Assembly: GCF_013343005.1 (NCBI RefSeq) | Contig: NZ_CP054491.1 | Location: 3,144,501-3,208,500, forward strand | DNA from: Candidatus Reidiella endopervernicosa | GTDB lineage: Bacteria; Pseudomonadota; Gammaproteobacteria; GCF-013343005 | DNA length: 64,000 nt | Direction: 5' to 3' | Shown: piece by piece, positions 32,902 through 57,491 of the stretch | Position numbering within the stretch: the first letter of the stretch is position 1 | Layout of the letters: the number at the start of each line of letters is the position of its first letter | Position numbers and translations under genes: made by a program | The notes under the pieces: model-generated | What the model saw: the letters and a program-made list of their open reading frames with translations, nothing else | What the model was told of the DNA's origin: nothing | Database searches by the model: none

Positions 32902-33104
32902 AATCGCTTCCTATCACTTCGGTAAATTCAAGTCTCTAAGACTATTCGCCTCGACGCCATCAAGCAAGCACAACCATCGCCGAAGCCACTGTTTTTTATA
33001 TGTATTCTCTGAATTGAACAGGCATATTCGTCATAATTCAGAGTCCACATCTAATAATATCGACACATCTCTCAATCAATGTAGCCCCAATCACAATAAT
33101 CCAC

Positions 33105-33382
33105 CGCTGACCGCCATGGAGAGCGAAGTGAGGGCGGTTAGTCCCCGATAGTCGACGCCGTCTGCCTATTCGTAGTTGAGAGCGCGAGCGAACGACGGAG
33201 AAGATGCAGCACGGCTTTATGTCGGCGTAGAGTCACTGAGGGAGTTGTGTAGAGCCGCGAAGAGGTGATTACGCAACGAACGCAGGACGTCGGGCGCCGC
33301 AGGCATAAACGGTCGCGTGAAGTTTTTGCTGTTTGCTTGGGCTTGGATGCCCAAAACAAACTTTCGCAAAAATAGCGACTCC
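33105..33382 (-). repeat. 280-bp interspersed repeat, copy I (intergenic)
   Basis: Minus orientation, right-end subtype 1, several 1-base deletions (GCACGGC; GACGTCGGGCGCC). Left flank on its own strand TGTCCG. No coding frame is visible on either side, so no gene appears broken. It is 204 bp upstream of ppk2. Confidence 0.95.
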
Positions 33383-33882
33383 CGGACAACCGTCACTCAG
33401 CATTCACCACCAATCAACGAGTTACGCTTAATCTAGTGACAGTCCACCTCACTTTTAGCTATCAAAACAGATAAAAGAAAAATACCAATCAGAATAAGCG
33501 CCCGGCAATCGAGATGCCAAATCCAAACCTGTCGTCACTCATCAGCGGAACAGTCGTTACGTGGACCATCTACGTCCCCATATCGTCAGAGCATGGCGCA
33601 GCCGTCGGTATTCCTCCACTTGATCCTCACAAAAACGACAAGAGCCTCTCTATTCACACACCATTCTTACGCAGATCCAACCATCGATTGTGTACCCGCA
33701 TCATGAAATTAGAGAGATCGCATGACCTTCTGATAATGACATCGGGAGCGCAGTGATTGGTGAGTTACAAAAAAGCGTGAGGACGACATTGTCTGTGGCT
33801 CTAATCCCGGGGCTATTTAATATGAGACAACAATTCGCAACTCGATATGGAGCGCCTTAGTCACGCCTCATTTATTAGGCCG
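33383..33882. other. Long non-coding gap
   Basis: A short ORF at 33514-33756 has no ribosome-binding site, no recognisable motif and unlikely composition, so I leave it out. I see no RNA gene or repeat here. Confidence 0.5.
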
Positions 33883-34074: not shown

Positions 34075-35827
34075 ATCGAACTACCTCCTTTGAAAACATC
34101 TAAAGTGATGTTGGAATAAACGACTATCACACAAGCTCTCTGCAACAGCAATCAGACCCTGCAGAAACGGACATCCTCTGACCGCGCAGTAAACGTAGAC
34201 CACTAATGCGACTTATGTTGAGACAACTGCTATTGCATATGAGATGAGAAAGCATCGCGTATATGACCGCGCAACTGCTGGTCATCCCATGGCTTAGCGA
34301 GGAAGCGGTAGATCCACCCCCTATTGACTGCTTCGGTCACCGTATCAAGATCGGTATAACCACTCAGTATCATGCGAACGGCATCGGGATAGAGCTCTTT
34401 AACAATATTCAATAACTCAACGCCATTCATCTTTGGCATACGTTGATCCGAGACAATCACATCCACCTCATTTTGGGCCAGCAGCTCAAAGGCCTCGTCC
34501 GCACTCTCTGCTGCGAGAATGTGATAACCCTCATCCCTGAGCGTACGTTTCAGCGCTCTCAGGATATTCGGCTCATCATCAACCAATAGAAGCGTAGGCG
34601 TACGCGCTCCTTCGTCATTGGGTATATCGATCACGTTACCGTTCTGCAACATCTCTTGTGCCTGGGCACTCTCAACCGATCGACTAAAGTAGTAGCCCTG
34701 AATATCGTAACAACCATTTCTACGTAATATCGAAAGTTGTGACTCGGTCTCCACCCCTTCTGCAATCACATTCAATCCCAGCCCCTGAGACATGGCGATG
34801 ATGGTACGTACGATCGCTGCACTCTCTGTCTCATGAACCAGCTCGGCGACAAACGACTGATCGATCTTGAGCCGACCGAAGGGGAAGTGTTTCAACTGAC
34901 TGAGGCTTGAATAACCGGTACCAAGATCGTCCAGAGCGATCATAACCCCCATGTCACGTACCTTTTCCAGCAACTTTCTCACCCCTTCAGGATCATCCAT
35001 CAGCGCACTCTCTGTCACCTCAATCTCTAGTTGTTCTGCTGGCAGTTGATGCCTTTTTAGAGCCGCCGCAATGGTGTGATTAAACTCCAGACTCCGCAGT
35101 TGATGCATTGAAACGTTGATCGACATCACCACGGGCGGCAGCCCCATCTCCCGCCACGCCACAGCCTGGGCACAGGCCGTTTGTAACACCCAGTCGCCAA
35201 TCGGGATAATCAGCCCGGTATCCTCTGCCAACGGAATAAACCGATTAGGAGGAATCAGACCATGCTTGGGGTTCTCCCATCTCAGCAGCGCTTCAAAACC
35301 GGTGATTTTTCCACTGACCAGATTCACCTGTGGTTGGTAGTGGAGTAACAACTCATCGTTTTCAATTGCACGACGCAGCTCACTCTCAAGTGTCACACGC
35401 TCCATCACTCGCGTATTGAGCTCCTCGGTAAAGAACTGGAAGTTATTACGCTCCAGCTCCTTGGCACGATACATCGCCGCATCGGCATTCTTTAGCAGAG
35501 TCTCACTATTACTTCCGTCACGAGGAAAGATGCTAATACCGGCACTGACGGTAATATGCAGATTGATATCTTTGTAATCGATTGACTGCGCTACATCTAC
35601 CAGTAATCGATTCGCTATCGGTGGAATATCATCAACACTCCCCACATCAGCAAAGACCATCACAAATTCATCCCCACCATATCGGGCTACCGTGTCGCCT
35701 TCGCGAGCAAAGGTTTTCAGCCGGTCACCAAATATCTTCAGCATGTGATCACCGACCGAGTGACCCAGACTGTCATTGATCACCTTGAACTGATCAATAT
35801 CGATAAACAGCACCGCTGCCATGCTCG

Positions 35828-36108
35828 GGGAGTCGCTATTTTTGCGGAAGCATGTTTTGGGCATCCAAGCCCAAGCAAGCGGCAAATACTTAACGCGACC
35901 GTTTATGCCTACGGCGCCCCGACCGTCCTGCGTACGTTGCGTAATCACCTCTTCGCGGCTCTACACAACTCCTCAGTGACTCTACGCCGACATAAAGCCG
36001 CTGCTGCATCTTCTTCGTCGTTCGCTCGCGCTCTCAACTACGAATAGGCAGACGGCGTCGACTATCGGGGACTAACCGCCTTCGCTTCGCTATCCATGGC
36101 GGTCAGCG
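35828..36108 (+). repeat. 280-bp interspersed repeat, copy J (antisense in GGDEF domain)
   Basis: Plus orientation, opposite to the host. Removal rejoins HRYQPSMAAVLF in frame across the GGDEF domain. Left-stem variant GCGGAAGCATG with CAAGCGGC; right-end subtype 2. Confidence 0.95.
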
Positions 36109-37187
36109 GTTGATAGCGATGCGCATAGGCGATCGCCTGACTGAGACGATCCTGCATCAGGTTACGGTTGGGCAATCCGGTCAGGTCATCATGGTTGGCC
36201 TGGTATTCAAGCTGATTCTCATAACGTTTGTATTCGCTAACATCATTGATAATGCCAACATAGTGCGTCACCCGACCATTCTCATCCTGAACCGGTGCAA
36301 CATGGAGATCATTCCAAAACAGCGATCCATCCTTACGATAGTTTCGCAGCAGTGCGCTGCCGGTACGGTGTTCGGCAACGGCCTGGCGGATCTTCTCCAA
36401 CTCCGGCTGCTCCTGCTCCATTCCCTGAAGGAAATTTGGATTTTTCCCAATAACCTCCTCTGCACGATAGCCCGTGATCAGTTCGAAGGCTGGATTGACG
36501 TAGGTAATACGGTTATTTGGGCGTATTGCATCGGTAATCAACACGCCATTGAGTGTTGCCTCAACGGCCCGATTACGCAGCAACAACCCCTCTTCACCCA
36601 TCCGCCGCTCGGTTACATCGGTACCAGAACTCAGAGTGCCTATCGCCTTTCCCTCTACGTCTCTCTGCAGTACGGTATTGGACCACTCGATTAATCGCCG
36701 TTCACCCGAGCTGTTGATAATCCAGTTCTCATGGGTAATCACACCCATCTGATGTTGCCCCGACAGCAGCGGTGTAAACACCTCACCCCAGAGCCGCTCC
36801 TGTTCAGTTACCGAGATGCAGAGATCAAACCAGTTACGCCCAACCACCTCATCTTCGTTATAACCGACAATTTCCAACCCCTTGCGGTTAATCATCATCA
36901 CGTTTCCGTCGTGATCAAGCGCCAACATCATCACACCGGCAATATCGAGATAACTCTGCGCTATATCACGCTGCGCTTCAGCCTCCTCAGTAGCGTGTTT
37001 AAGGTCGGTAATATCATCAAAGGTGGTAATCACCTGGCAGGGCTTCTTCTCGTCAGGCTCAAACTCTGGAACGCTGTTAACCAGTATCCATCGGTGTCCA
37101 CTCTCGATTGGGTTGTACACCCCCATTACTACATCCTTGACCACACGCCCTGAATGCAGAGCCACCATTGAAGGGTGTGTCTCAACG

Positions 37188-37469
37188 GGAGTCGCTATTT
37201 TTGCGAAAGTTTGTTTTGGGCATCCAAGCCCAAGCAAACAGCAAAAACTTCACGCGACCGTTTATGCCAGCGGCGCCTCGACCGTCCTGCGTACGTTGCG
37301 TAATCACCTCTTCGCGGCTCTACACAACTCCCTCAGTGACTCTACGCCGACATAAAGCCGCTGCTGCATCTTTCTCCGTCGTTCGCTCGCGCTCTCAACT
37401 ACGAATATACAGACGGCGTCGACTATCGGGGACTAACCGCCCTCACTTCGCTCTCCATGGCGGTCAGCG
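37188..37469 (+). repeat. 280-bp interspersed repeat, copy K (antisense in PAS domain)
   Basis: Plus orientation, opposite to the host. Left flank CTCAACG, right flank ACGGGAATTC. Frame restoration needs a unit one base different from the standard boundary. An extra T lies in CATCTTTCTCC. Right-end subtype 1. Confidence 0.95.
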
Positions 37470-38796
37470 ACGGGAATTCAGACCCATCGATGTGAATCGC
37501 CTGCCACCGCGAATCGTTCGAGTGGCGCCCGTTCAACTCCGTCCTTTCAAGACCAAGAATTCTCTCAGCCGCCGGATTATTAGCGGTGATATTTCCTTCT
37601 ACATTCTGGTAGACCACTCCCTGCGCCATATTTTCAAACAGATAACGAAAGTGCTCATCACTCTCCTGAGTAGCGCGAAACTGGCGCTGCCAAGAGTAGA
37701 CATATATGGCAATAAATAGGGTTGTAAACACCCCTCCCACTAGCAGCACCCAGGCGGCATAGCCTAACTGCGGTTCAAAGTAGCCAGATGCTGGCGCCGT
37801 GACTATTCGCCACTCACCTCCGGCCACTTTGATCGTCTCCGCCTTTACGAATCGAGCATCGGAAGATGCCATCGCCCTGATCGATTGACTGGCGATGCGG
37901 GATTGATGTCGATAGATTTGTTGTAATTCCCCATCCTGTGATCGCTCATCAATCCAGATATCGATCCCACGCGGCTTCAGGATCGATATCGCCTCCTCCA
38001 CCATATCGTTAATGTGAAAAACTCCCAGCGCAAACCCGAGCAACCTATTACGCCGCCCTACAACAGAAGCTGGTGGCTCTACACCTTCATAGACAGGCAC
38101 ATAGAGAAGGAAAGCTGCGGCACCGTTCACTTCTTGTACAAGTTTAAGTGGATCGGAAGTTGACGACTGGCCACTATCACGTGCCTGCTCAAGCGCAACA
38201 CGTCGGCCCATCTCTGAGGCAAGATCAAAACCCAATGCACTCTCGTTTCCATCCGTCGGTTCGATATAGAAAACGAGGAAATAGATATCACGCTCTGCAG
38301 CACCAACCAGCACCCCCTCCTCACTGATCTCACTGATTTGAAAGCCTGGGTAGAGTTCGCTCGCAGATCTCTCAAATGCTGTCCGCTGATCATGGGTTAC
38401 GCGGGGTATCCATTCGAGAGCCTGAAAATCACCATGTGACGTCAGCAACTGGCGAACATAGGTGCTGTAATCGGCCTTGGAGACCTTGGGGTTGGTTTTA
38501 ACAAAGGCTGAAAGGGCGCGTACGATCTGCTCATGACGCGCCAACTCATTACTGATCGCATCAATTCGCTCGCCAGCCGCAGTTTCAAATTCAACGGAGA
38601 GAGAGATCTCCTCGACCTGCCGCTCATAAAGGTAAACACCAATAAAGGCCGAGATCGCCACCAGTGCGGTTGCAATAACAACAGTCTCAGGGGGAATACG
38701 CCGTAACAGGTGATCAATCGCCGCTATTAGCGGCGTCTCTCGCATCTTTGTTCTCATGCCTCTGAATATAGACAAGAAAACAGAGAGTTTCTTTCG

Positions 38797-39077
38797 GGGA
38801 GTCGCTATTTTTGCGAAAGTTTGTTTTGGGCATCAAGCCCAAGCAAACAGCAAAAACTTAACGCGACCGTTTATGCCTTCGGCGCCCCGACCGTCCTGCG
38901 TACGTTGCGTAATCACCTCTTCGCGGCTCTACACAACTCCCTCAGTGACTCTACGCCGACATAAAGCCGCTGCTGCATCTTCTTCGTCGTTCGCTCGCGC
39001 TCTCAACTACGAATATGCAGACGGCGTCGACTATCGCGGACTAACCGCCTTCGCTTCGCTATCCATGGCGGTCAGCG
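38797..39077 (+). repeat. 280-bp interspersed repeat, copy L (upstream of c-di-GMP gene)
   Basis: Plus orientation, about 40 bp upstream of the CHASE-PAS protein start and pointing away from it. It probably separates that gene from its promoter. Right-end subtype 2. One base is missing in the hairpin loop (GGGCATCAAGCCC). The 260 bp to its right hold no gene. Confidence 0.95.
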
Positions 39078-39338
39078 TTTGACTCAAACCAGCGCCAGCA
39101 TCTGGTTAGTTGTTGTTATCCAGCCCATTTAAACCTGATGCCATTGACTTACAGCTACCGCCTACAGACGGCGTCAGAAAACCACCTACAAACCAGGCAT
39201 CACCCGGTTAGAGACTGACAATACAACAAGATAACGTGAATATGAGATATGGAGACAAACATCCCTGAGAGCAGGTAATGGGAGTGCTACAGCGCATGCA
39301 GTGAACACCGGACATTCACCAAAGATCAACTCAAATGC

Positions 39339-40071
39339 TTAACGAAACATGTTGCCCATATAGTCCGCCGGGTTGGAGAAGGAGTTCACGCCACGATCGA
39401 TGTTGTAACCCATTCGGTTCATCGACGGCCCCATACTCGCAACAGAAGGCGCCATAATCGAGACATTACGGGCAAGTGAATCAAGGTCATCTGACATCAG
39501 CACATACATGTCCGACATATGGGTATCCACCTCGGCGATCTCCTGCTCCATCTCGGTCATCTTCACCGCCATGGTGTTCATGCCGCCTTTCATTTCACCC
39601 ATATCACCCGACATGCTGCCCATGTCGGTCTGCATCGCCTGCATAGATGACATCATGGCGTTCATCGACTCCTGCATATTCAGCATCGCATTCATCATCA
39701 CGTACATAATGGTGCACATCACCGCCCCACCGATCCATGAGCCACCGACAATAACACCGGGAGTCGCTATTTTTGCGAAAGTTTGTTTTGGGCATCCAAG
39801 CCCAAGCAAACAGCAAAAACTTCACGCGACCGTTTATGCCTGCGGCGCCCGACCGTCCTGCGTACGTTGCGTAATCACCTCTTCGCGGCTCTACACAACT
39901 CCCTCAGTGACTCTACGCCGACATAAAGCCGCTGCTGCATCTTCTCCGTCGTTCGCTCGCGCTCTCAACTACGAATATACAGACGGCGTCGACTATCGGG
40001 GACTAACCGCCCTCACTTCGCTCTCCATGGCGGTCAGCGAACGTTCCAAGATTTGAGCTCTTCTCAACCAC
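39339..40071 (-). pseudogene. Methionine-rich membrane-associated protein, split by repeat M
   Basis: A GTG start at 40071 with AGGAG nine bases upstream gives VVEKSSNLGTF; copy M interrupts there, and the frame resumes GVIVGGSWIGGAVMCTIMYV (a membrane helix). Removal leaves 453 bases, exactly 151 codons without a stop. The rest is a helical, Met-rich rod (NMQESMNAMMSSMQAMQTDM ... MAVKMTEMEQEIAEVDTHM), more than a fifth of residues being Met. The spacing suggests a coiled coil. No established function; Met-rich proteins may bind copper or sense oxidation, which is speculation. Confidence 0.65.
39760..40039 (+). repeat. 280-bp interspersed repeat, copy M (antisense in Met-rich gene)
   Basis: Plus orientation, opposite to the host. 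Removal joins GGA ACG TTC to GGT GTT in frame. Right-end subtype 1; one C fewer in GCGCCCGACC. Confidence 0.95.
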
Positions 40072-40914: not shown

Positions 40915-42891
40915 TCATCCGGTAACGATTCGCCAAGCTTGTGATAACTTTTCGCGCACTGTTGTGGTACGGATGGTTTCAACCAGCTCCCTCACCTTGA
41001 ACTGGTGGTGCTGCTCGTAGGCGACGCCGAGCTGCGGCATATCGGCGAGACCGACTTCACGCGCATGCTCGACAAACCCTCTGTTCTTCCAGAAGAAGGC
41101 GCCGGGCATAGTGGTGGGAATCACCAGTACATAGAAAAGCGCGCGACCGATGGTTGAGCTGACCAGCGCCATTACTGCCAGCAGTGCGAAGGCCCAGCCG
41201 TCGATCAATCCCATCAGCGCCATGCCGACCGCAACGATCAGTGAGACCGCCAGCAGGCCGTTGCGCAGCCAGTAGGCGTAACCGAAGGTGGTCGACTGCT
41301 CGTAGAAGGAGGCGGCACCTTCACTCTCATGCCCCTTCAGATCCCTGGCGTGGTAGAGCAGTCCCACGCCCTCCAGCGCCAGACCAACACCGGCGATCAT
41401 CGCCAGCAGACGGCCCAGCTCCGGCGTCATCTGAGCGGTAAGCAGTGCGATTACCGCCAGTAGCAGTGCACCGAGACTCAGTGCACTACCGGCAAAGGTA
41501 GCGGCGGTCTGCCAGTGGTCCCAGAAGGGGCGCGCCGGAATGCGGTAGAGCTTGTACATGAAGTAACCGCCAATAGCGGCACCCGCCAGACCCAGCACCG
41601 CGAATACATCCTGGATCACCACCGGGAAGTTGTGACCGAAGAGTTCATCGGAGAGGGCGAAGAGGGCGAAGAGGGCGAAGAGGGTGAAACCGGCCAGGCC
41701 GACAAAGAAGAGGGTGACCCCCGCTATCTCACGACTCACCGGCGACATGCGCAGGTTGTAGAAACCGCGATAGAAGCGGTGCGGTTTGCCCAGATGCATA
41801 TTGAGCTTGAACAGACCGACCGCCATCATCACAAACATCACCGACAGCGCTGGCACAAAGGCGGAGCTGGCGGCGAAGTTAGCGATCGCCTCCTGACCGA
41901 ACCAGCTGCCGAGTACCAGCATGGCAAAGGCACCCATTACCGTCTGCACACTCAGGGTGAAGGCAATATGGGCATTCTCATGCGAACCGAGCAGCCTCTT
42001 CAGGTTCCACTCACGCTTGAAGCCGTGCTTCGGATCGAGTGCCGGACGGAACCTGCCCTCGCTATCGTCACGGTGGTACTTGAGCGGGGTACTGTCGACG
42101 CGCTGCATGTCGCGTTGGGTGGTGCGCGTCTGCTGGAAGCGGATGTTGGGGTTGGTGATGTCGGTGCGCGGGAAGCCGGGGATCTCCGCCTTCGCCTGGG
42201 TTCGCCCCTCGGGCACGTTCTCGATCACACCGAAGTCGAGCGCCTTGCCGAGACAAGCGGAGGCGCAGGCGGGTTTGAGTCCTACCTCAAGACGGTCGAC
42301 ACACATATTACATTTAGTCACCTGCCCCTTCACCGGATCGAGCTGCGGCGCGTTGTACGGACAGACCCAGGTGCAGTAGCCGCAGCCGAAACAGATATCG
42401 GGGTCTTGCAGCACCGCACCATACTCGGCGAACTTGGTATAGGCGCGGGTCGGACAACCTTTCAGACAGACCGGATTGTCGCAGTGGTTGCACGCCATCG
42501 AGATGTTGAGGCGCTGATAGGCGGGATAGCTACCCCCCTCGACAAAACCGACCGAGCGGAAGGCGATGTGCGCCGGGTTGTCGTTCTTCTCACTGCAGGC
42601 CGCCTCACAGGCGTGGCAGGCGATACAGTTGTCGGCGTTGAAGTAGAAGCCGTGCTGTTTGTAGCGGTTGGGATTATCGCCAATCTCAGGATTTTCGTTG
42701 ATCTTGAGACTGACACCGTAGCGTGGGTCTTCCTCAGTCACGGTCTCTATCGACCTTCCGTAGCGGTTATGTGTCTGACTACTCGGATCATTGAGCAGCG
42801 CATAGGTCGGCTCATTGGCACGCGCTTTGAAGATCGGCGCTTCACCTTCGATGCTCTGCTCTACTGCTGAATCTGTCACTTTAACTAACAT
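40915..42891 (-). CDS. Fused four-cluster ferredoxin / DmsC-like membrane anchor of the nitrate reductase
   Basis: 658 residues in two parts. Residues ~80-255 form a DmsB/NrfC-type domain with four cysteine groups (CIACHACEAACSEKN; CNHCDNPVCLKGCP; CFGCGYCTWVCPY; CNMCVDRLEVG...CASAC) for four 4Fe-4S clusters. From ~320 onward eight or so helices form a DmsC-type quinol anchor (LGSWFGQEAIANFAASSAF; GAAIGGYFMYKLYRIPARPF). These are normally two proteins. It lies 9 bp after the nitrate reductase gene, so it likely passes electrons from the quinol pool to that enzyme, replacing the usual ferredoxin or NADH partner. No Tat signal is present, so the iron-sulfur part faces the cytoplasm. Confidence 0.85.
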   Translation of the reverse strand: MLVKVTDSAVEQSIEGEAPIFKARANEPTYALLNDPSSQTHNRYGRSIETVTEEDPRYGVSLKINENPEIGDNPNRYKQHGFYFNADNCIACHACEAACSEKNDNPAHIAFRSVGFVEGGSYPAYQRLNISMACNHCDNPVCLKGCPTRAYTKFAEYGAVLQDPDICFGCGYCTWVCPYNAPQLDPVKGQVTKCNMCVDRLEVGLKPACASACLGKALDFGVIENVPEGRTQAKAEIPGFPRTDITNPNIRFQQTRTTQRDMQRVDSTPLKYHRDDSEGRFRPALDPKHGFKREWNLKRLLGSHENAHIAFTLSVQTVMGAFAMLVLGSWFGQEAIANFAASSAFVPALSVMFVMMAVGLFKLNMHLGKPHRFYRGFYNLRMSPVSREIAGVTLFFVGLAGFTLFALFALFALSDELFGHNFPVVIQDVFAVLGLAGAAIGGYFMYKLYRIPARPFWDHWQTAATFAGSALSLGALLLAVIALLTAQMTPELGRLLAMIAGVGLALEGVGLLYHARDLKGHESEGAASFYEQSTTFGYAYWLRNGLLAVSLIVAVGMALMGLIDGWAFALLAVMALVSSTIGRALFYVLVIPTTMPGAFFWKNRGFVEHAREVGLADMPQLGVAYEQHHQFKVRELVETIRTTTVREKLSQAWRIVTG

Positions 42892-42900
42892 CGCAACACC

Positions 42901-45095
42901 TCAAAATTTTCTCATTTCCATGCTCAGACGCGCGGCACCGAGTTGATCGGCAATCGTCTCGATGCGAATCGCCGACTGCTTGTAGGCGGGCTGACGCGAG
43001 TGCGGATCGAGCAGCCCCAGGGTGAGGCGGTTGGCACAGTCGTGGAAGTGGAACGGAAGGAAGACCATGTTCTTCGGTACACGGTGGGTCGGCTGCGCCA
43101 TCACCACCGCATCGGAGCGGCGCGAGACGAGACGCACATAATCACCGCGCTCAACCCCCAGTTCCGCTGCCAGATCGGGATTGATCTCGATGAACGGAAT
43201 GGGACTGTATTTGTTGTTGTTACCGATCTTGCCGGTCTTGGTACGGCCGTGCCAGTGCTCGATCAGACGACCGGTATTGAGCCAGACGGGGAACTTCTCA
43301 TCCGGCACCTCGTTGTTATCGATAAAGGGGAGCGGTATCAGCTTCGCCTTGCCGTCGGGATAGCTGAAAGCGCCATCCTCGGTGTAGAGGCGCTTGCCAC
43401 CCTTCGGCGGTGCCTCACCCCTCTCCAACTGCTGCTCGGTGTAGGGCCACTGAACACCACGACTCTGCTCCAGCAGTTCGTGGTTCATGCCGGAGATATC
43501 ACAGAGACGCCCCTTCGAGAGTGAACCCATCTCGAGAAACACATCGGGGGCGCGTTCCGGAAAGCTCACCCTACCCTCCTTGTTGAAACGCTCCGCCATA
43601 CGATTGAAGACCCACAGGTCGGGCTTCGCCTCACCCGGCGGGGTGCTGATCGGTGTAACCAGATTGATGCGCCGCTCGGTGTTGGTCATCACCCCCTCCT
43701 TCTCCGCCCAAGTACCGGCAGGCAGATAGACATGGGCGTAGTGGGCACTCTCGGTATCTTCGTAGCAGTCCTGCACAACACAGAACTCGAGTTTCTCCAT
43801 CGCCTTGCGCACCCGCGCACTGTTGGGCAGTGAGGTAAGCGGATTGGTGGCGATCAGCCAGAGCCCCTTGATCTGACCCGACTCAATGGCGTGGTAGATA
43901 TCGGTCTGGAACATGCCTCGCTGCTTGGGGAAGAATTCGGGATCAACGTTCCACGCCCTGGCGATCTCCGCACGGTGTTCGGGATTCTCCAGCACACGGT
44001 AGTTAGGTAGACCGGAACAGGAGGACCACTCGCGGGTACCCATCGCGTTGCACTGGCCGGTGATCGAGAGGCTGGTGCCACCCGGTTTGCCAATGTTGCC
44101 GGTGAGCAGCGCCAGGTTGTTGATACCGACCACGCCGTCGGAACCGTGGGTCGACTGATTAATACCCATGGTCCAGATCTGCATCGCCGCACCGGCGTTG
44201 CCGAAGAGACGTGCCACCTGGCGAATCGAATCCTCGTCGATACCGCAGATCTTCGAGGCGGTCACCGGGTCGTACTTTTCGACCTCCGACTTCAGCGCAT
44301 CAAAGCCGTTGGTATTGGCGGCGATATAGCGCTCATCGATCATCTGCTCCTTGATCAGCACATGCATCAGCGCGTTCTGCAGCACCACGTCGGTACCGGG
44401 CGTGATCGGCAGATGGATATGGGCATTCTGTGCCAGCATGGTGACACGCGGATCGACCACTACCAGCGGGAAGCCGCGCCGCTCCTGCGCCTCCTTCATA
44501 CGCCAGTAGATGATCGGATGTTGCTCGGGCAGATTGGAGCCCCAGGCGATCAGGCAGTCGGTGTGCTCAAAATCGTCGTAGCAGCCAGGTGGGCCGTCGG
44601 AGCCGAAGGAGCGCTTGTAGCCCGAGACGGCCGATGCCATGTATTGCCGTCGTAGTTGTTGGTACCGATCAGGCCGCGGGTCAGCTTGCCGAGGGTGTAG
44701 AACTCCTCGGTCAGCATCTGCCCGGTGGAGATCACCGCCACGGAGTCGCGGCCATACTTCTGCTGGATAGAGACGATCTCGTCGTGCACCTTGTCGAGCG
44801 CCGCATCCCAGTTGGTCTCGGCCCACGGCTGGTGCCAGTGCTCGCGCATCTTCGGCGTCAGGCCTCGTCCGGCGGAGTCGAACAGTTCGTGCTCAAAGAT
44901 CCCCTTCAGGCAGAGTTTGCCCTGGTTCACATTGGCATCGGCAACGCCGCGCGAGGCGACTGCCCTGCCGTTACTGTCGAGACCCACCTCAATGGAACAA
45001 CCGGTGGAGCAGTAACCGCAGGTGGCGTACTTCCACTCCTGCACATCCTTATTGGCGATCGTGATCGGGTTCTTCTTCTGACGACCAAAAAGCAT
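42901..45095 (-). pseudogene. nasA: Assimilatory nitrate reductase catalytic subunit, deletion at the Mo-ligand cysteine
   Basis: The N-terminus has the 4Fe-4S motif YATCGYCSTGCSIEV...CLKG, then WDAALDKVHDEIVSIQQKYG and LIGTNNYDGNT. Here about 10 bases are missing: family members continue N-S-R-L-C-M-A-S-A, but the sequence goes from AAT AC directly to ATG GCA TCG. The next frame continues MASAVSGYKRSFGSDGPPGC to the normal C-terminus (PFHFHDCANRLTLGLLDPHS). The lost stretch includes the cysteine that coordinates molybdenum, so as written the gene cannot make active enzyme. Everything else looks intact and operon genes are present, so a sequence error must be considered. Cytoplasmic (no Tat signal). 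Confidence 0.88.
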
Positions 45096-45152: not shown

Positions 45153-45479
45153 TTAGCAGTTTTTATTGGCAACCGTGTTGAGCGAGATCACACCCGCCTC
45201 AACCTTCACCTCATAGGTCGGCACACACCCTTCATCGGGCGCGACAACCGCACCGCAATCGATATCAACGTTCCAGTTGTGCAGCGGACAGGTCACTTTT
45301 TTACCGTGCACAATCCCCTCGGAGAGCGGCCCGCCCTTGTGTGGGCACTTGTTGCGCAGGGCGAACAGCTCATCATCTGAGGTGCGGAAGATCGCGATCT
45401 CTTCATCACCACTCGCCACAACCCGTGAACCCAAACGGGGAATATCATCAAGCTTTCCAATCTCAACCCAGTTCGACAT
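45153..45479 (-). CDS. nirD: Nitrite reductase small subunit NirD (Rieske type)
   Basis: 108 residues with the Rieske pair CPHKGGPLSEG and CPLHNWNVD, which bind one 2Fe-2S cluster. Length and N-terminus (WVEIGKLDDIPRLGSRVV) are typical. It partners NirB in NADH-dependent reduction of nitrite to ammonium. It lies between the globin and nitrate reductase genes rather than directly after nirB. Confidence 0.95.
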   Translation of the reverse strand: MSNWVEIGKLDDIPRLGSRVVASGDEEIAIFRTSDDELFALRNKCPHKGGPLSEGIVHGKKVTCPLHNWNVDIDCGAVVAPDEGCVPTYEVKVEAGVISLNTVANKNC

Positions 45480-45509: not shown

Positions 45510-45878
45510 CTATCTGCAGAGCACATCGTCACGTATCGATTCGGCAATTGATGCCGCCTCACCGATCAGTTCAGCAGGAACATTCAGCGCCTGCAGCGCG
45601 GCACCGAGGTTCTCGATCACCGCATCGAAGTGACTATCGTTAAGACCCAGTTTCTTAACCAGCGGAGCATGCGCCTCGCGCATTCCCCGCCCGGAGTAGT
45701 TCGGCAAGCCACCGAAGGCGAAGCTAAGAAACTTCTTCTGGTGGCCACGCTGCCTGGCCATATCGGTATTTTCAAAGAAGTAGTTGATGCGCTCATCGGC
45801 CATCACGTTGTTGTAAAAGAGATCGACAGCGGCATCGATCACCTTTTCACCACCCAAACGTTCGTAGAGAGTGCTCAT
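45510..45878 (-). CDS. glbN: Truncated haemoglobin (group I)
   Basis: 122 residues with the 2/2 globin signature: LYERLGGEKVIDAAVDLFYN, then FFENTDMARQRGHQKKFLSFAFGG. The proximal His is in MREAHAPLVKKLGLND, and the Phe-Tyr/Gln distal pocket residues are present. Group I truncated globins bind O2 and convert NO to nitrate. Its place inside the nir-nas operon suggests protection from NO formed during nitrite reduction. Confidence 0.92.
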   Translation of the reverse strand: MSTLYERLGGEKVIDAAVDLFYNNVMADERINYFFENTDMARQRGHQKKFLSFAFGGLPNYSGRGMREAHAPLVKKLGLNDSHFDAVIENLGAALQALNVPAELIGEAASIAESIRDDVLCR

Positions 45879-45905: not shown

Positions 45906-48366
45906 TCAGCCGTTAGCAACGACCTTCTCCTCATCTTCGTTAAAGGTTTTCATCGGTACGAATTCGAGACGATGCTCAGGCTTGGTATGCTCGGCCCAGG
46001 GGTCCTTCTGCGAGATCTCCTGCGAGATCAGGAAGCGGGCACTGAGTGCCTTACGATTCTCAACATCATCGACGAGGCGCTCCTTCACATAGTTGAGACC
46101 GACACGCTCGATCCACGGCGCAGTACGCTCCAGATAGCGCGCCTCTTCGCGATAGAGCTGCATGAAGGCCGCGGCATACTCGAGCACCTCACCATCGGTC
46201 TCGACACGGGCCAGCAGATCGGTGACACGTACCTTGATACCGCCGTTACCGCCGATATGTAGCTCATAACCCGAGTCGACTGCCACCACGCCAAAGTCTT
46301 TGATAGTCGCTTCGGCGCAATTACGCGGACAGCCGGAGACGGCCATCTTGAACTTGTGCGGGGTCCAGGAACCCCAGCTCAGCTTCTCCAGATCAATACC
46401 CATCGCGACTGAGTCCTGAGTACCGAAGCGACAAAACTGTGAACCGATACAGGTCTTAACCGTTCGCAGCGCCTTGCCGTAGGCGTGGCCAGAGACCATG
46501 CCGGCATCATTCAGGTCTGACCAGATCGCCGGTAGTTGATTCTTCTTCAGACCAACCAGATCGATACGCTGACCGCCAGTCACCTTGACCATCGGCACCT
46601 CATACTTATCGGCCGCATCGGCGATGGCACGCAGCTCATCGGGGGTGGTGACACCGCCCCACATACGCGGCACGACGGTGTAGGTACGATCCTTCTGGAT
46701 GTTGCCGTGGGCACGCTCGTTGATGAAGCGCGACTGCGGATCATCGACCGCCTTGGTCGGCCAGGAGGAGATCAGGTAGTAATTAAGCGCTGGACGACAG
46801 GTGGGACAACCATTCGGATTGCGCCACTCCAGCTTCTGATAGACCGCCTCCATTGAGGTCAGCTCACTATCGACAATCGCTGCACGCACCTGATCGTGGC
46901 TGTGATCGGTACAGCCACACATCGGTTTGACCTTCGGATGGGAGAGATCGCTACCAACGGTTGCGGCGAGAATCTGTTCGACCAGACCACTACAGCCGCC
47001 ACAGGAGGCCGAGGCCTTGGTATGCGCCTTCACCTCATCAAGGGTAAAGAGTCCTTCGGTGGTGATAGCGTGCACGATGTCGCCCTTGGTGACACCGTTA
47101 CAACCGCACACCTCGGTGTCATCCGACATATTCATCACGGTATTACCGGCACCGTGGCCCGAATCACCGAGGTGGCCCTGACCGAACATCAGAGTATCGC
47201 GGAAGGCGCTGACATCGGCCTCCTCACGCATCAACTGGAAGTACCACGGACCGTCCATGGTCGAGCCGTAGAGCACCGCACCCTGGATGCGGTTGTCCTT
47301 CAGCACCACCTTTTTATAGATGCCCTTTGAGGGGTCGCGGTAGACAATCTGCTCACACTCATCGTCACCGACAAAGTCACCCGCCGAGAAGAGATCGACA
47401 CCGGTCACCTTCAGCTTGGTCGAGGTGACCGATCCCTCGTAACGACCGTAACCGAGCTGGGCGAGGTGGTTGGCACAGACCTTGGCCATCTCAAACAGCG
47501 GTGCGACCAGACCGTAACACTGGTTACGGTGCTGTACACACTCACCCACCGCGTAGACGCGTGGGTCATAGGTCTGCATGGTGTCGTTAACGACGATACC
47601 GCGACCACAGTAGATACCGGCCGACTCGGCCAGGGCGATGTTGGGACGAATACCGACCGCCATCACGACCAGATCGGCGGTCACCTCACGACCATCTTCA
47701 AAGGTAACACCCTGTACCCGTTTGCGGCCAAGGATCTCCTTGGTCGAGGCGCCCATAATGAATTCAACGCCGCGCTCCTCCAGCTCCTGCTGCAGCAGGG
47801 TGCCAGCCTCTGTATCGAGCTGCTGCTCCATCAGGGTGTCGCGGATATGCACCACGCGAACCTTCATACCGTGTTTCTGCAGACCGTTGGCCGCCTCAAG
47901 ACCGAGCAGACCACCACCTATGACTACTGCATGGCGATACTGCTTCGAGGTCTCGACCATCGTCTCGACATCCTTCACGTCGCGGAAGCCGATCACACCT
48001 TCGAGCTCGTGACCAGGGACGGGAAGAATAAAGGATTAGAACCGGTAGCGACCAGTAGTCGATCGTAAGCGGCCTCGGTCCCGTCATCGGTTATAACGAG
48101 ACGGTTTTACGATCTATCCTCACTACCGTCTTACCGGTATGCAGAGTGATGTTGTTCTCGGCGTACCACTCGGGGGTGTTGAGCATGATCTCATCGAGCG
48201 TTGCCTCACCGGTGAGCATCGGCGAGAGCATGATGCGATTGTAGTTGCCGTAGGGCTCGGCACCGAAGACGGTGATCTCATAGGTATCGGGTGCGATCTT
48301 CAGCAGCTCTTCGAGCGTGCGCACACCGGCCATGCCGTTTCCAATCAGTATCAATCTTTCTTTCAT
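45906..48366 (-). pseudogene. nirB: NAD(P)H-nitrite reductase large subunit NirB, two frameshifts near the N-terminus
   Basis: The start MKERLILIGNGMAGVRTLEE is the FAD-binding motif (GxGxxG). The frame shifts near 48100 (after DRKT) and again near 48025 (TGSNPF/ILPVPGHE), each by one base, with LVITDDGTEAAYDRLLVATG in between. From 47996 the frame is open to the end: NADH domain (VVIGGGLLGLEAANGL), two BFD 2Fe-2S regions (CGCNGVTKGD; CGGCSGLVEQ), and the sirohaem/4Fe-4S block (GSQFCRFGTQDS; SGCPRNCAEATIKDFG). All catalytic residues survive. The two shifts are probably sequence errors or recent mutations. It leads the operon and has a sigma-54 promoter ~40 bp upstream. Confidence 0.9.
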
Positions 48367-48739: not shown

Positions 48740-50209
48740 ATGTCGGAATCGAAACTCAACCTGTTTTCCTTTAGCGGAAAGACACGCATCCTGCACCTCA
48801 GCTGGTTCGCCTTTTTCCTCACCTTTGTTGTCTGGTTCAGCCATGCACCATTGATGGCATCGATCCGTGAGACCTTCGGTCTGAGCGATCAGGAGGTGAA
48901 GATGCTGTTGATCCTTAATGTGGCGCTGACCATTCCGGCGCGCATCATTATCGGTATGCTGGTTGACGCCTTCGGACCTCGCCGCATCTTTTCGATGCTG
49001 CTATTTGTCTCAAGCTTCCTCTGTTTCGGTTTCGCCTTCGCTGATGATTTCGAAACGCTGGCGATGATCCGCTTCCTGCTCGGTTTTGTCGGTGCCGGTT
49101 TTGTGATCGGTATTCGCATGATCAGCGAGTGGTTCCCTGCCCGTGAGGTTGGTCTCGCTGAGGGCATCTACGGTGGTTGGGGTAATTTCGGTTCCGCCGC
49201 AGCCGCGCTCACCCTGCCAACACTCGCACTCTGGTACGGCGGTGATGATGGCTGGCGTTATGCCGTTGCCACCACCGGTGCAATGATTCTGATCTACTCG
49301 GTGGTCTACTTCTTTAGCGTTACCGACACCCCCAAGGGCTCGACCTACTTCAAGCCGAAGAAAAACGGTGCGATGGAGATCTCCAGTCGCGGCGACTTCT
49401 TCCTCTACCTGCTAATGAACATCCCGCTCTATGCAGCACTGGCGCTGCTCACCTGGAAGCTCGGTCCAAGCAACCTGAAGATGCTGGGTGATGCTCCCGC
49501 CACCATGATCTATGCCTCACTGATCGGTCTCTACATCTTCCAGACTATTCGGATCTACCAGATCAACAGCCACGTCTTTAATGCACCGGTACCGGAGATC
49601 GAACGCTACAAGTTCAAGCAGGTTGCAGTACTCGACCTTGCCTACTTCGTCACCTTCGGCTCCGAGCTGGCCGTGGTCTCGATGCTGCCGCTCTTCTTCA
49701 TGGACACCTTCGAACTCTCAATCGTCCAGGCCGGCATGCTCGCCTCCGGATACGCCTTCATGAATCTGGTGGCACGCGCCTCGGGTGGTCTCGCCTCCGA
49801 TAAGATCGGTCGAAAGAAGAGCCTCGCGATCCTGATCACCGGCCTCTCGATCGGCTACTTCGTTATGAGTCAGATCGATTCGAGCTGGCCGATCACAGTA
49901 GCAGTACTGGTCACCATGGGTTGCTCATTCTTTGTCCAGTCGGGTGAGGGTGCGGTGTTCGCGATGGTGCCACTGGTCAAGCGTCGCATGACCGGACAGA
50001 TCGCCGGTATGGCGGGTGCCTACGGTAACGTCGGCGCGGTCACCTTCCTCACCATACTCTCCTTCGTCTCACCCTCGATCTTCTTCATGGTGATCGGTGG
50101 CGCGGCGATCGTGGTACTGGCAGCGGTATTGCTCTTCCTCGATGAGCCAGCCGGCCAAATGGCCGAGGTGATGCCTGATGGCACCGTGCAGATGATCGAC
50201 GTCGCCTGA
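48740..50209 (+). CDS. narK: Nitrate/nitrite transporter (NarK/NasA-type MFS)
   Basis: 489 residues, 12 membrane helices. The nitrate-nitrite porter signatures are present: an Arg on helix 2 region ([20 protein letters not shown]), then [19 protein letters not shown] and [19 protein letters not shown] (nitrate signature G-W-G-N-x-G). The second is [16 protein letters not shown] near residue 425. It imports nitrate through the inner membrane, in a sense the low-affinity counterpart of the ABC system at 54-57 kb. It has its own sigma-54 promoter. Confidence 0.92.
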
Positions 50210-50229: not shown

Positions 50230-50274
50230 GCGGGCGGCGTCTGTAGCAGCTACAGCACCGCCCGCTTCTTTTTG
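50230..50274 (+). terminator. Terminator after narK
   Basis: Stem GCGGGCGG/CCGCCCGC with an inner CTGTAG/CTACAG stem, followed by TTCTTTTT. The next gene starts 26 bp later, so it may only attenuate. Confidence 0.8.
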
Positions 50275-50300
50275 TCTCATCCGGGGTACTATCTAACGCC

Positions 50301-54011: not shown

Positions 54012-54863
54012 TCAACCTGCCGCCAACTTCAGCTTCGGTCCACTTCTCTCTTCATCACTCTTCTTATTAACCGGCACATCGGGCTGCGCGTGGCGTTCGT
54101 GCAGGAAGCGCAGCACCTCGGCGCGGTAGTGGTTGTAGGTAGGATCATCGGCCAGCATCAGTCGGTCACGTGGGCGCTGCAGTTCGATATCGAGAATTTC
54201 ACCGATAGTGGCTGAGGGTCCGTTGGTCATCATCACGATCCGGTCGGAGAGCAGCACCGCCTCATCGACATCGTGGGTGATCATGATCACGGTGTTATTT
54301 AACTCCGACTGGATCTCCATCAGTGAGTCCTGCATGTGGGTACGGGTCAGAGAATCGAGCGCACCGAACGGCTCATCCATCAGCAGTACCTTCGGCTCCA
54401 TCGCCAGGGCGCGGGCGATACCAACACGCTGCTTCATACCACCAGATATCTCATCGGGACGCAGGTTCAATGCGTGGCTCATATGCACCAGCCCAAGGTT
54501 ATGCAGTGTCCACTCATCGCGCTCCTGCTTGTTCTTGGTCTTGCTAAAGACCTGATCGACAGCGAGTCATACGTTGTCATAGACCGAGAGCCACGGCAGT
54601 AGCGAGTGGTTCTGAAATACCACCGCACGGTCGGGTCCGGGTTCGGTGACCTCCTTGTTCTCCAGTAGCACACCACCGGTGGTGGCGTTGAGCAGACCGG
54701 CAACAATATTTAGCACCGTCGACTTACCGCAACCGGAGTGTCCGATGAGTGAGATAAACTCACCCTTATCGACCTTGAGTGAAACATCATTCAGTACATT
54801 CAACGGGCCGTTATCGGTGTCGAAGGTGATACTCATATTTTCCAGACTTAGATAACTGTTCAT
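54012..54863 (-). pseudogene. nrtD: Nitrate ABC transporter ATPase (NrtD/NasD-like) with an in-frame TGA
   Basis: ATG 54863 has AAGGAG nearby. Walker A GHSGCGKSTVLN, Q-loop VVFQNHSLLPWLSVYDNV. At 54567-54569 a TGA stops the frame, but the same frame goes on LAVDQVFSKTKNKQERDEW. The signature EISGGMKQRVGIARALAMEP, Walker B VLLMDEPFGALD and switch TVIMITHDVDEA all follow. Arg is expected at the stop (VYDNVRLAVD), so a CGA-to-TGA change is likely. It would energise nitrate import with the permease and binding protein downstream of the same promoter. Confidence 0.88.
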
Positions 54864-54886
54864 GACAGCTCCTTGATAGATCTTGT

Positions 54887-54968
54887 GTAGCCCGGATGAA
54901 ACAGCGTGTAATCCGGGAAGCTTATTGTTAACAACACCCCGGGTGTCGATGCGCGACATCCGGGCTAC
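54887..54968. repeat. REP-like hairpin (GTAGCCCGGATG ... CATCCGGGCTAC)
   Basis: An imperfect palindrome bounded by GTAGCCCGGATG and CATCCGGGCTAC, with an inner CCCGGGTGTCG arm. It lies between nrtB and nrtD, where such elements often stabilise or attenuate operon mRNA. Confidence 0.75.
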
Positions 54969-54975
54969 AAATCAT

Positions 54976-55998
54976 TTAACGCAGTACTGCATTGCGATCC
55001 CAGGTGGCCCAGCGCTGTAGCATCAGCATGCCGCGATCGAGCAGGAAACCGAGAATACCGATCACCAGCACCGCCACCATGATGCGCGAGAGCGAGTTGG
55101 AGCTACCGTTCTGGAACTCATCCCAGACGAACTTTCCAAGACCGGGATTCTGCGCCAGCATCTCGGCCGCGATCAGCACCATCCAGCCGATACCGAGCGA
55201 GAGACGCAGGCCGGCAAACATCATCGGCACCGATGAGGGCAGTACGATCTTCATCGTCTTGGTGAACCAGCCGAGACGCAGCACACGGCTCACATTGATC
55301 AGGTCCTTATCGATCGATGAGACACCGACGGTGGTATTGATAATGGTCGGCCAGACACAGCAGAGAGTTACAGTGATCGCTGAGGTAATGAACGACTTAT
55401 CGAACATCGGGTCGTCACTCACATAGACCGCGCTCACCACCATGGTGACAATCGGTAACCAGGCCAACGGTGATACGGGTTTAAAGATCTGAATGATTGG
55501 GTTGAGCGCACGGTAGAGCGTAACGCTCATGCCGCAGACAATTCCGATCGGAATGGCAATCAACGAGGCGATAATAAATCCGGTTGCCACCGTAATCAGG
55601 CTGGTGAAGATCTGATCGATAAAGGTCGCCTTGCCGGTGTAGGGACGAGTCTTGATTGTTGCATCGGGATTCTTCGCCAGCTTCTTGGCGTTGCGCAGAT
55701 CCTGGCGCTCATAAAAAGCGACCTCCTTCTGTCGCTCCGCCTTGTGCTCTGCATAGAGCTGAATCGTCTGCTGCCAGACCTGTGCAGGCCCTGGCAGCTT
55801 ACCCAGCGATGTTGTAACGCTGGATGCCCCCGTACTCCATAGCGCCAGAAAGATAACTACTGCTATGAGTGGAATAAGTAGAGTTTTTGTTAGTGATGCG
55901 GTGACCTTAACCAGTCGGTCGCCCTCGAGAAAGGCGAACAGTGAATAGAGCCACTTCACTTCGAAACTTTTGCTCGGGTTGATAATCGTTGCGTTCAT
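54976..55998 (-). CDS. nrtB: Nitrate ABC transporter permease (NrtB/NasE-like)
   Basis: The ATG at 55998 is preferred (MNATIINPSKSFEVKW, AAGGTATCT upstream) over the longer frame, giving 340 residues. About seven membrane helices, with the family's charged periplasmic segment between helices 1 and 2 (residues ~80-125: KAERQKEVAFYERQDLRN). The ABC permease loop is AAEMLAQNPGLGKFVWDEF (EAA motif). It lies 60 bp downstream of nrtA in the same operon. Confidence 0.92.
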   Translation of the reverse strand: MNATIINPSKSFEVKWLYSLFAFLEGDRLVKVTASLTKTLLIPLIAVVIFLALWSTGASSVTTSLGKLPGPAQVWQQTIQLYAEHKAERQKEVAFYERQDLRNAKKLAKNPDATIKTRPYTGKATFIDQIFTSLITVATGFIIASLIAIPIGIVCGMSVTLYRALNPIIQIFKPVSPLAWLPIVTMVVSAVYVSDDPMFDKSFITSAITVTLCCVWPTIINTTVGVSSIDKDLINVSRVLRLGWFTKTMKIVLPSSVPMMFAGLRLSLGIGWMVLIAAEMLAQNPGLGKFVWDEFQNGSSNSLSRIMVAVLVIGILGFLLDRGMLMLQRWATWDRNAVLR

Positions 55999-56057
55999 AA
56001 TAGATACCTTGATTATTCGATTAGGCATGTCCCCCTCCGCATCGCGGAGGGCATTAC

Positions 56058-57491
56058 CTAAACCTTGTCGCCACCCTTGAGTCCGATATCGAACTTCTTC
56101 AGATAGTCATTTGGTTTTTTGCCATCGTAGGTAATTCCATCGATGAAGTGAGTCTGTGGTGCGCGGAAGCCATCTTCACTGGCGAAGTTCGGGAACTCAC
56201 TGGCTGCGATCTTGCCCTCTGCAATTAGCTCCTTGGCCGCCTGCGCATAGATGTCGGGACGGTAGACCTTCTTGGCAATATCCATGAACCAGCTATCGGG
56301 TTTCTGCTCGCCGATCTGTCCCCAGCGACGCATTTGCGTCAGGTACCAGATCGCATCGGAGTAGTAGGGGTAGGTGACGTTGTAGCGGAAGAAGACGTTG
56401 AAGTCTGGCACATCGCGCTTGTCACCCTTCTCATACTCAAAGGTACCGGTCATTGAGTTGGCGATAACATCGTAGTCGGCACCGACGTAGTTAGACTGTG
56501 AGAGGATCTTCACCGCCTCGGGACGGTTGGCGTTGTTCTTCTCATCGAGCCACTTGGCGGCACGAATCATCGCCTTCACCACACGGATGTGGGTGTTAGG
56601 GTTCTTGTCGGCCCAGCTCTTCGACACACCAAAGACCTTCTCCGGGTTGTCTTTCCAGATCTCGTAGTCGGTTACCACAGGTACACCGATTCCCTTAAAG
56701 ACGGCCTGCTGGTTCCACGGCTCACCGACGCAGTAGCCGTAGATGGTGCCCGCCTCCATGGTGGAGGGCATCTGTGGCGGCGGGGTTACCGAGAGCAGTG
56801 CATCGGCATCAACGTTACCGCTGGTATCACCCTTTTCAGGTGCGTAGTAACCAGGATGGATTCCGCCGGCCGCGAGCCAGTAACGCAGCTCGTAGTTATG
56901 GGTCGAGACGGGGAAGACCATACCCATCTTGAATGGCTTACCCTCATCCTTGTACTTCTCTACAACCGGTTTGAGTGCATCGGCCTTGATCGGGTGAACC
57001 GGCTTGCCATCCTTGTGTGGTACATGCGGCTTCATCTGCTTCCAGATATCGTTGGAGACGGTGATCGCATTACCGTTTAGATCCATCGAGAAGGCGGTAA
57101 TGATATGAGCCTGGGTACCGAAACCGATAGTCGCGCCGAGTGGTTGACCCGCCAGCATATGTGCACCATCGAGCTCACCATCAATGACACGATCGAGCAG
57201 CACCTTCCAGTTGGCCTGAGCCTCAAGGGTGACGTAGAGCCCCTCATCCTCGAAGTACCCCTTCTCATAAGCGATGGCGAGTGGTGCCATATCGGTCAGC
57301 TTGATGAACCCGAATTTCAGATCCTCTTTCTCAGGCTCCCTCACCTCGGCATGTGCAGCGCCTGTCATCAATGCACCGCTAGTCATCATGCCGGCACTCA
57401 GCAGCGCCACACTCAGCTTCTTCATAAAGGTACGACGCGGTTTCACCGAAACCTCAGAGACTGCATTAACCACCTGATCACGCTTTTCCAT
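56058..57491 (-). CDS. nrtA: Nitrate/nitrite-binding periplasmic protein (NrtA/NasF-like)
   Basis: 477 residues. The N-terminus has a twin-arginine motif ([18 protein letters not shown], cleavage near GAAHAE), then the NrtA fold: [59 protein letters not shown] with ligand-binding residues, and [13 protein letters not shown]. It captures nitrate or nitrite for the NrtB-NrtD importer. It heads the operon; its expression is set by the sigma-54 promoter and leader described at 57527-57702. Confidence 0.93.

Follow-up and report, generated by a model that had tools for sequence, protein, structure and literature searches.

A 64-kb stretch of the Candidatus Reidiella endopervernicosa genome (contig NZ_CP054491.1; hereafter the window, to whose positions all coordinates refer) carries a gene for a DmsB-DmsC fusion protein (40915..42891, minus strand). 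From its reading frame, profile matches and relatives, the product is predicted to be the quinol-oxidising and electron-transfer subunit of a nitrate reductase. Assimilatory nitrate reductases are described as soluble, with ferredoxin or NAD(P)H flavoproteins as their electron source. Here, the fusion gene and a nasA gene form a conserved unit, nasA-dmsBC, and for the family as a whole the best explanation, which we consider likely, is that the two genes specify a quinol:nitrate oxidoreductase anchored in the membrane and facing the cytoplasm. Judged from genome sequences, numerous sulfur oxidisers and methanotrophs appear to carry a nitrate reductase that draws electrons straight from the quinol pool.

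The open reading frame (ORF) of the fusion comprises 658 amino acids (aa), begins with ATG and has no internal stop. Its DmsB-like domain (residues 79-226; 42214..42657, minus strand) holds four [4Fe-4S] motifs and matches the NCBIfam model TIGR02951 (DmsB; E 1e-45, 155.7 bits, below the cut-off of 214.1), and Pfam Fer4_11 covers residues 131-222. All 16 cluster Cys were kept in 74/74 fusion relatives paired with NasA. The DmsC (NrfD-type) domain (residues 302-589; 41125..41988, minus strand) has eight predicted helices, and its assignment rests on a fold match and on Pfam PF04976 (DmsC; E 7.6e-15, 55.5 bits, above the cut-off of 22.3). In the relatives, the fusion starts at a nearly invariant Met (alignment column M20) about 19 codons inside the window ORF. 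Because ATC replaces this Met codon in the window, the fusion there must start at the upstream ATG or have an altered start. The joining of two genes by assembly error or chance is ruled out by the many fused homologues. Matches of ~560 aa at ~30% identity, obtained in the 94-genome set described next, were rejected as fusions of the same build; in loci L019 and L020 they turned out to be two adjacent genes.

We searched a first set of 94 genomes, including the window's own, and found the fusion in 14 of them. The other 13 hold 14 copies with 55-72% identity that span both domains; one genome has two copies, and the copy of G055 has its last part in another frame. A second draw of 200 genomes across the phylum contained the fusion in two, namely the window's own genome and G192, a member of another class in which nasA also lies just upstream. 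A scan of named genomes returned 541 relatives, of which the best 80, a best-scoring set that leans to the window's kin, included by title 33 sulfur oxidisers or chemosynthetic symbionts, 18 methanotrophs, 2 Cycloclasticus and 27 others. By NCBI class, these 80 comprised 66 Gammaproteobacteria, 4 Betaproteobacteria, 1 Muproteobacteria and 9 without a class. A plasmid search with the fusion gave no record covering 80% of it, and dmsBC was not among the listed neighbours of the top plasmid match to NasA (41% identity, Hymenobacter).

Of 90 testable loci, the window's own counted, 89 have a nasA gene of one distinct lineage (described below) upstream of the fusion on the same strand at a distance of no more than 2 kb, 79 of them at no more than 250 nt. 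Among the 95 fusion loci, five had no upstream sequence and one (L035) had no nasA nearby; its genome (G015) carries the lineage nasA on another contig. All 15 fusion-bearing genomes from the 94-genome set and the 200-genome draw, some of them incomplete (76-100%), encode a lineage NasA, including one in which the pair is unlinked. Furthermore, NasA and fusion distances were correlated (Mantel r 0.80, 74 pairs), with none of 1000 permutations reaching as high a value. Of the 65 loci with more than 5.5 kb of upstream sequence, 56 contained a nirB homologue and 44 contained nirD. The initial annotation had read the protein as four 4Fe-4S clusters fused to a DmsC-type membrane anchor and as the partner of NasA, and the conserved Cys, the PF04976 match, the fused relatives and the linkage bear out both points.

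Two residues of the DmsC domain, His366 (41794..41796) and Glu388 (41728..41730, both minus strand), align with His65 and Glu87 of the quinol site of Escherichia coli DmsC. Equivalents of both occur in every one of the 95 rows compared (94 fusions plus E. coli DmsC), and Arg71 is matched in 94/95. According to the available excerpts of PMC8076601, replacing DmsC His65 blocks quinol oxidation, and His65 and Glu87 are listed as the quinol site, also in SoeC. In its fold, the predicted membrane domain also resembles ActC, a subunit of alternative complex III (Z 21-23), as well as PsrC (Z 17.6). On the strength of PF04976, the ActC/PsrC fold and the quinol-site residues, the fusion is predicted to serve as a quinone-interacting membrane anchor.

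The orientation of this anchor can be predicted from its charges. Lys and Arg of the fusion concentrate in loops 2-3, 4-5 and 6-7 and are scarce in the others. The resulting loop charge difference averaged +10.6 and was above 0 in 94/94 fusions, compared with 0 for E. coli DmsC at the same loop limits. With widened loops, it was +11 for the window protein, at least +7 for 24 fusions and +12 to +16 for three SoeC-like anchors, against -4 for E. coli DmsC and -6 for YnfH. E. coli DmsC and YnfH belong to periplasm-facing enzymes. SoeABC is described as cytoplasmic membrane-bound in the part of PMC11172852 that was available. The charge pattern therefore suggests that the fusion is placed like SoeC, so that the DmsB domain and the quinol site would face the cytoplasm, adjoining the cytosolic NasA. 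A DmsC-type anchor would thus be used with its iron-sulfur (FeS) domain on the cytoplasmic side, in a predicted orientation opposite to that of E. coli DmsC.

To place the catalytic subunit, a NasA tree of 28 rows was built with formate dehydrogenase (Fdh) as the outgroup. The 14 rows of fusion-paired NasA formed one clade (support 100/100), and the catalytic subunit grouped with NapA and NasA against Fdh (100/100). In another tree, the lineage NasA lay far from E. coli DmsA. Support was weak (83/70) for placing the lineage outside a group of classical NasA and NapA, the tool warned that the long Fdh and NasA-II branches meet, and a single clade of all NasA was not rejected (p-AU, from the approximately unbiased test, 0.3). 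The references were few (four plasmid-encoded proteins with a nitrate reductase annotation, five NasA that are second copies in the loci, three NapA and two Fdh), and NarB and Bacillus NasC were left out. In these trees, fusion-paired NasA represents a separate deep lineage outside classical NasA. A motif resembling a twin-arginine translocation (Tat) signal was detected in 0/74 N-termini of NasA or the fusion. The description in the initial annotation as a cytosolic, NasA-type enzyme is thus supported in its first half, and its second half needs the qualification that the lineage stands apart from classical NasA in a tree that does not reject one NasA clade.

Pfam Molybdopterin, Molydop_binding and Molybdop_Fe4S4 were found in 3/3 intact relatives scanned, which places them in the molybdenum-bis(pyranopterin guanine dinucleotide) (Mo-bisPGD) DMSO reductase family. 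All 74 lineage rows read T-T-L-C-M-[AS]-S-A-V, so that the molybdenum (Mo) ligand motif is nitrate-reductase-like (Cys-Met) in 74/74. The position Cys-2 is Thr in all of these rows, compared with Arg in all 14 of the remaining rows that showed the motif (two of them identical; DmsA yielded no motif). This Thr beside the Mo ligand, together with the DmsBC-like B and C domains, could indicate that the enzyme reduces another oxyanion or an S- or N-oxide such as dimethyl sulfoxide (DMSO) instead of nitrate, and the available text of PMC4287430 describes dmsABC for the Solemya velum symbiont, whose genome has no DmsA above the cut-off. We regard such a substrate as improbable, given that the catalytic subunit sides with NapA and NasA against Fdh and lies far from DmsA, and that nirBD and nitrate transporters adjoin the pair.

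A C-terminal BFD [2Fe-2S] domain was absent from 3/3 lineage NasA scanned and present in 5/5 classical NasA, and the classical electron entry is therefore missing in the lineage enzyme. This bears on the idea that NasA is fed by NirB with NADH or by ferredoxin, with DmsBC acting as a mere anchor or passing electrons to quinone. NirBD is indeed encoded within the same operon, and flavoproteins or ferredoxin feed classical NasA elsewhere. We nevertheless rate this arrangement as very improbable: apart from the missing BFD domain, the fusions retain each of the 16 cluster Cys as well as the quinol residues, and the nitrate/nitrite potential lies far above that of the quinone pool.

Seven of the 15 fusion genomes (G079, G089, G070, G009, G074, G034 and G087) also encode a classical NasA, recognised by its motif and not by identity alone. 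The same motif-based search did not find it in the other eight, the window's genome among them, at genome completeness of 76-100%. A second NasA-like protein of G065 was rejected as classical NasA, as its motif is formate dehydrogenase-like. In L108, L030, L103 and other loci, two NasA lineages share one cluster: the lineage NasA is accompanied by DmsBC, and the classical NasA bears a BFD domain. At L108, a gene for a NirB-like flavoprotein precedes the classical NasA. Such loci are a natural contrast of two electron inputs. Separately, ~900-aa proteins with the motif A-R-M-C-M-T-S-A-V (L160-L163, in G082, G034, G089 and G079) show 36-37% partial identity to lineage NasA.

The presence of classical NasA in these seven genomes also lends some weight to a cytoplasmic, electroneutral quinol:nitrate reductase that serves respiration or redox balance and not mainly assimilation. 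In the same direction, many host titles among the best 80 of 541 refer to vent, seep and sediment habitats, and NirBD can serve dissimilatory ammonification, as stated for sulfur bacteria in the excerpts of PMC4914600. Against this, the neighbours are an NADH nitrite reductase and nitrate importers, the predicted topology would conserve no energy, and the window genome owns Nap for dissimilatory use (NapA, NapG and NapH above the NCBIfam cut-offs, with a Tat-bearing NapA). We therefore consider a mainly respiratory role rather unlikely.

In the preferred quinol-driven assimilatory scheme, the DmsC domain would oxidise quinol at its His366/Glu388 site, close to the cytoplasmic face. The four [4Fe-4S] clusters of the fused DmsB domain would relay the electrons to NasA, which would receive them at its N-terminal [4Fe-4S] cluster and hand them to Mo for the reduction of nitrate to nitrite; NirBD would convert nitrite to ammonium with NADH. 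The expected gain is that, with electrons entering at the level of quinone, NADH from uphill electron flow would be spared at the nitrate step. Complex formation, the electron path, quinol as donor, nitrate as substrate and assimilation as the main use are what we infer from the combined comparisons. It also seems to us somewhat probable that the pair constitutes a widespread class of quinol-driven assimilatory nitrate reductase, not previously described, shared by sulfur oxidisers, methanotrophs and related members of the Gamma- and Betaproteobacteria. Its marks would be a deep-branching NasA that lacks the flavoprotein-fed [2Fe-2S] domain and a DmsB-DmsC fusion facing the cytoplasm.

Several observations weigh against this interpretation. 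Shared species history accounts for part of the co-variation of NasA and fusion distances, and the NirB homologue of the methanotroph loci is distant (35-37%). Cytochrome bd chains match the predicted membrane part nearly as well as ActC and PsrC do (Z 16-20); since these scores lie in the same range, the structure match backs the fold and not the function. Moreover, the predicted structure is confident in the membrane part only, with most of the FeS part at a predicted local distance difference test (pLDDT) value below 50. The replacement of Arg by Thr at Cys-2 means that substrate or chemistry may differ, and where classical NasA is also encoded (7/15), the lineage enzyme need not be the assimilatory one. 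The C-terminal piece of the window NasA exceeds the cut-off of no NCBIfam nitrate reductase model: it reached 389 and 376 bits against NasC and NasA, with cut-offs of 1100 and 1000. Two classical NasA also remained below these cut-offs, and the score therefore does not separate the lineages. Finally, the window's own nasA is damaged.

Upstream of the fusion in the window, the order of transcription on the same strand is nirB, truncated haemoglobin, nirD and nasA. The initial annotation missed that the adjacent nasA is broken into two frames. The N-terminal part (44641..45095, minus strand; ORF, Pfam and alignment evidence) contains the [4Fe-4S] domain and lacks a Tat signal, and the C-terminal part (42901..44640, minus strand; ORF, NCBIfam and Pfam evidence), with the molybdopterin and dinucleotide-binding domains, is out of frame with it. 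At the junction (44640..44641, minus strand), where relatives read N-T-T-L-C-M-[AS]-S-A-V, the window is 10 nt shorter, which shifts the frame and removes the predicted Mo-ligand motif, including the Cys of T-L-C-M that we take, from the NapA/Nas family, to be the Mo ligand.

The other genes of the region are in mixed condition. Those for NirD, the Rieske-type small subunit of NADH nitrite reductase (45153..45479, minus strand; NCBIfam, Pfam), and for the truncated haemoglobin (Bac_globin; 45510..45878, minus strand; Pfam) are open, as is the divergent gene for a NarK-family nitrate/nitrite transporter of the major facilitator superfamily (MFS; 48740..50209, plus strand; NCBIfam). The gene for the large subunit, nirB (45906..48366, minus strand; NCBIfam and comparison with relatives), has two 1-nt gaps near its 5' end, at ~48035 and ~48109, relative to seven relatives. 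A nitrate ATP-binding cassette (ABC) transporter region (54015..56106, minus strand) consists of an ntrB-type permease (54979-56106) and an ntrCD-type ATPase (54015-54971), both matching below the model cut-offs, and the ATPase has one in-frame stop (54567-54569) between two matched halves.

Sequencing error might account for such lesions. However, rpoB and rpoC of the same assembly are open over 1390 and 1412 codons (more than 8 kb), and ORFs of at least 200 codons cover 0.55 of the window and 0.41-0.69 of five other 20-kb stretches, compared with 0.68-0.92 of seven relative loci. Because of these intact genes and the low ORF coverage compared with the relatives, decay is the likelier source. 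With nasA, nirB and the ABC ATPase damaged, the operon is likely not assimilating nitrate in the window genome. Judged from its sequence, the catalytic gene nasA is probably dead and nitrate assimilation by this operon probably lost; a genome search found no second NasA, the other matches being NapA and weak ones. We accordingly regard it as quite likely that the locus in this genome is a decaying, functionless remnant, as the active-site lesion in nasA, the nirB gaps and the ATPase stop would suggest in an assembly with intact rpoB and rpoC. On the other hand, dmsBC, nirD, the globin gene and the MFS transporter gene are all open, and assembly error may be an alternative source of the lesions. 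The quinol-driven nitrate assimilation proposed by the initial annotation thus fits the family, through linkage, quinol residues and the cytoplasmic FeS side, and is not supported for the genome in which it was proposed, as it stands.

Among known systems, SoeABC is similar in combining a MopB catalytic subunit, a four-cluster FeS subunit and an NrfD/DmsC-type anchor. SoeC has His65 and Glu87 (excerpts of PMC8076601), and in three genomes the SoeC-like anchors possess these two residues and distribute their charges in the same way. Sulfite is oxidised by SoeABC, however, its catalytic subunit belongs to another lineage, and its B and C subunits are encoded by separate genes in the SoeABC-like loci L135, L019 and L020. 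We rejected filing the pair as SoeABC, as the window genome has its own SoeABC-like set and the catalytic subunits are unlike: against the S. velum symbiont, the SoeA-like protein of the window genome matched lineage NasA with 25.7% identity over 269 aa and the SoeA-like protein with 76.8% over 951. This set (L135, C1:101000-120000) has separate B and C genes, and a nap cluster follows ~7 kb further on; "SoeABC-like" is our own label, as no NCBIfam model reached its cut-off for these loci.

E. coli DmsABC shares the B and C domain types and the quinol-site residues. It acts on the periplasmic side, with a Tat-exported A subunit. It differs from the pair described here in having separate B and C subunits, DMSO as substrate and a membrane domain charged the other way round. 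Filing as DmsABC was rejected too, as the catalytic subunit is not of DmsA type (116 bits for the window piece against the DmsA model, cut-off 777.7) and the charges predict that B and C do not face the periplasm. With NasA, NasC and NarB, the lineage NasA has in common the absence of an export signal, the N-terminal [4Fe-4S], the Cys-Met motif and a neighbourhood of nirBD and nitrate transporter genes; it differs in lacking BFD, in Thr at Cys-2, in its separate lineage and in having DmsBC instead of a flavoprotein or ferredoxin. Cytoplasm-facing, quinol-fed nitrate reduction, as proposed here, is also the mode of NarGHI, but the anchor here is of DmsC/NrfD type. NarG belongs to another lineage with an Asp Mo ligand, and NarI is a haem b anchor. 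Together, the recognisable catalytic, four-cluster and anchor components suggest that NasA-DmsBC is a variant of the complex iron-sulfur molybdoenzymes (CISM) and not a new category.

We recognised no published description of the NasA-DmsBC pair among open-licence papers. A survey of the DMSO reductase family states, in the portion available, that the clade of NasA/NasC, cytoplasmic formate dehydrogenase, AioA and NapA lacks canonical four-cluster or membrane-anchor subunits (PMC7331816), to which the conserved unit is a counter-example. The available parts of a later survey (PMC10100899) credit nitrate assimilation with partner subunits but name no anchor of this kind, and those of two papers on sulfur bacteria (PMC4914600, PMC11172852) give nasA without naming such partners. 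Such a unit would couple the assimilation of nitrogen to the quinone pool of the respiratory chain. If the assignment is true, bacteria with quinone-level electron entry would reduce nitrate without NADH or ferredoxin, and the energy cost of growth on nitrate would need to be recalculated for sulfur oxidisers, for which NADH is costly.

The assignment also affects annotation, since nasA-dmsBC loci can end up annotated as DMSO reductase. For the Solemya velum gill symbiont, the accessible text of PMC4287430 reports dmsABC and states that the nar genes of assimilatory nitrate reduction are missing. Its genome contains nirBD-nasA-dmsBC (L111) and two DmsC domains, one in the fusion and one in the SoeABC-like set; no DmsA was found above the cut-off in this genome, where the best match to the DmsA model was the lineage NasA. 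The published dmsABC is therefore probably the fusion locus or the SoeABC-like one, and as far as the sequence tells, probably a misannotation. Reports of DMSO reductase or of absent assimilatory nitrate reductase, as in this symbiont, may need revision if the function proposed here is true.

Two further features of the window were noted. Adjoining the nitrate transporter gene, one frame (50247-52010) joins a PP2C phosphatase domain to a downstream Ser/Thr kinase domain. In addition, a dispersed repeat of ~250-290 bp occurs at 33099-33386, 35825-36114, 37186-37470, 38834-39082 and 39757-40040, and sits between three ORFs that resemble fragments of a single PAS/GGDEF/EAL-type gene (34230-38775; domains named by eye). 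As a query against the window's own genome, the repeat gave 42 matches of ~244 nt with 96-100% identity (40 of 372 first-look candidates scored), which points to a short element that has spread through the genome and seems to interrupt genes.

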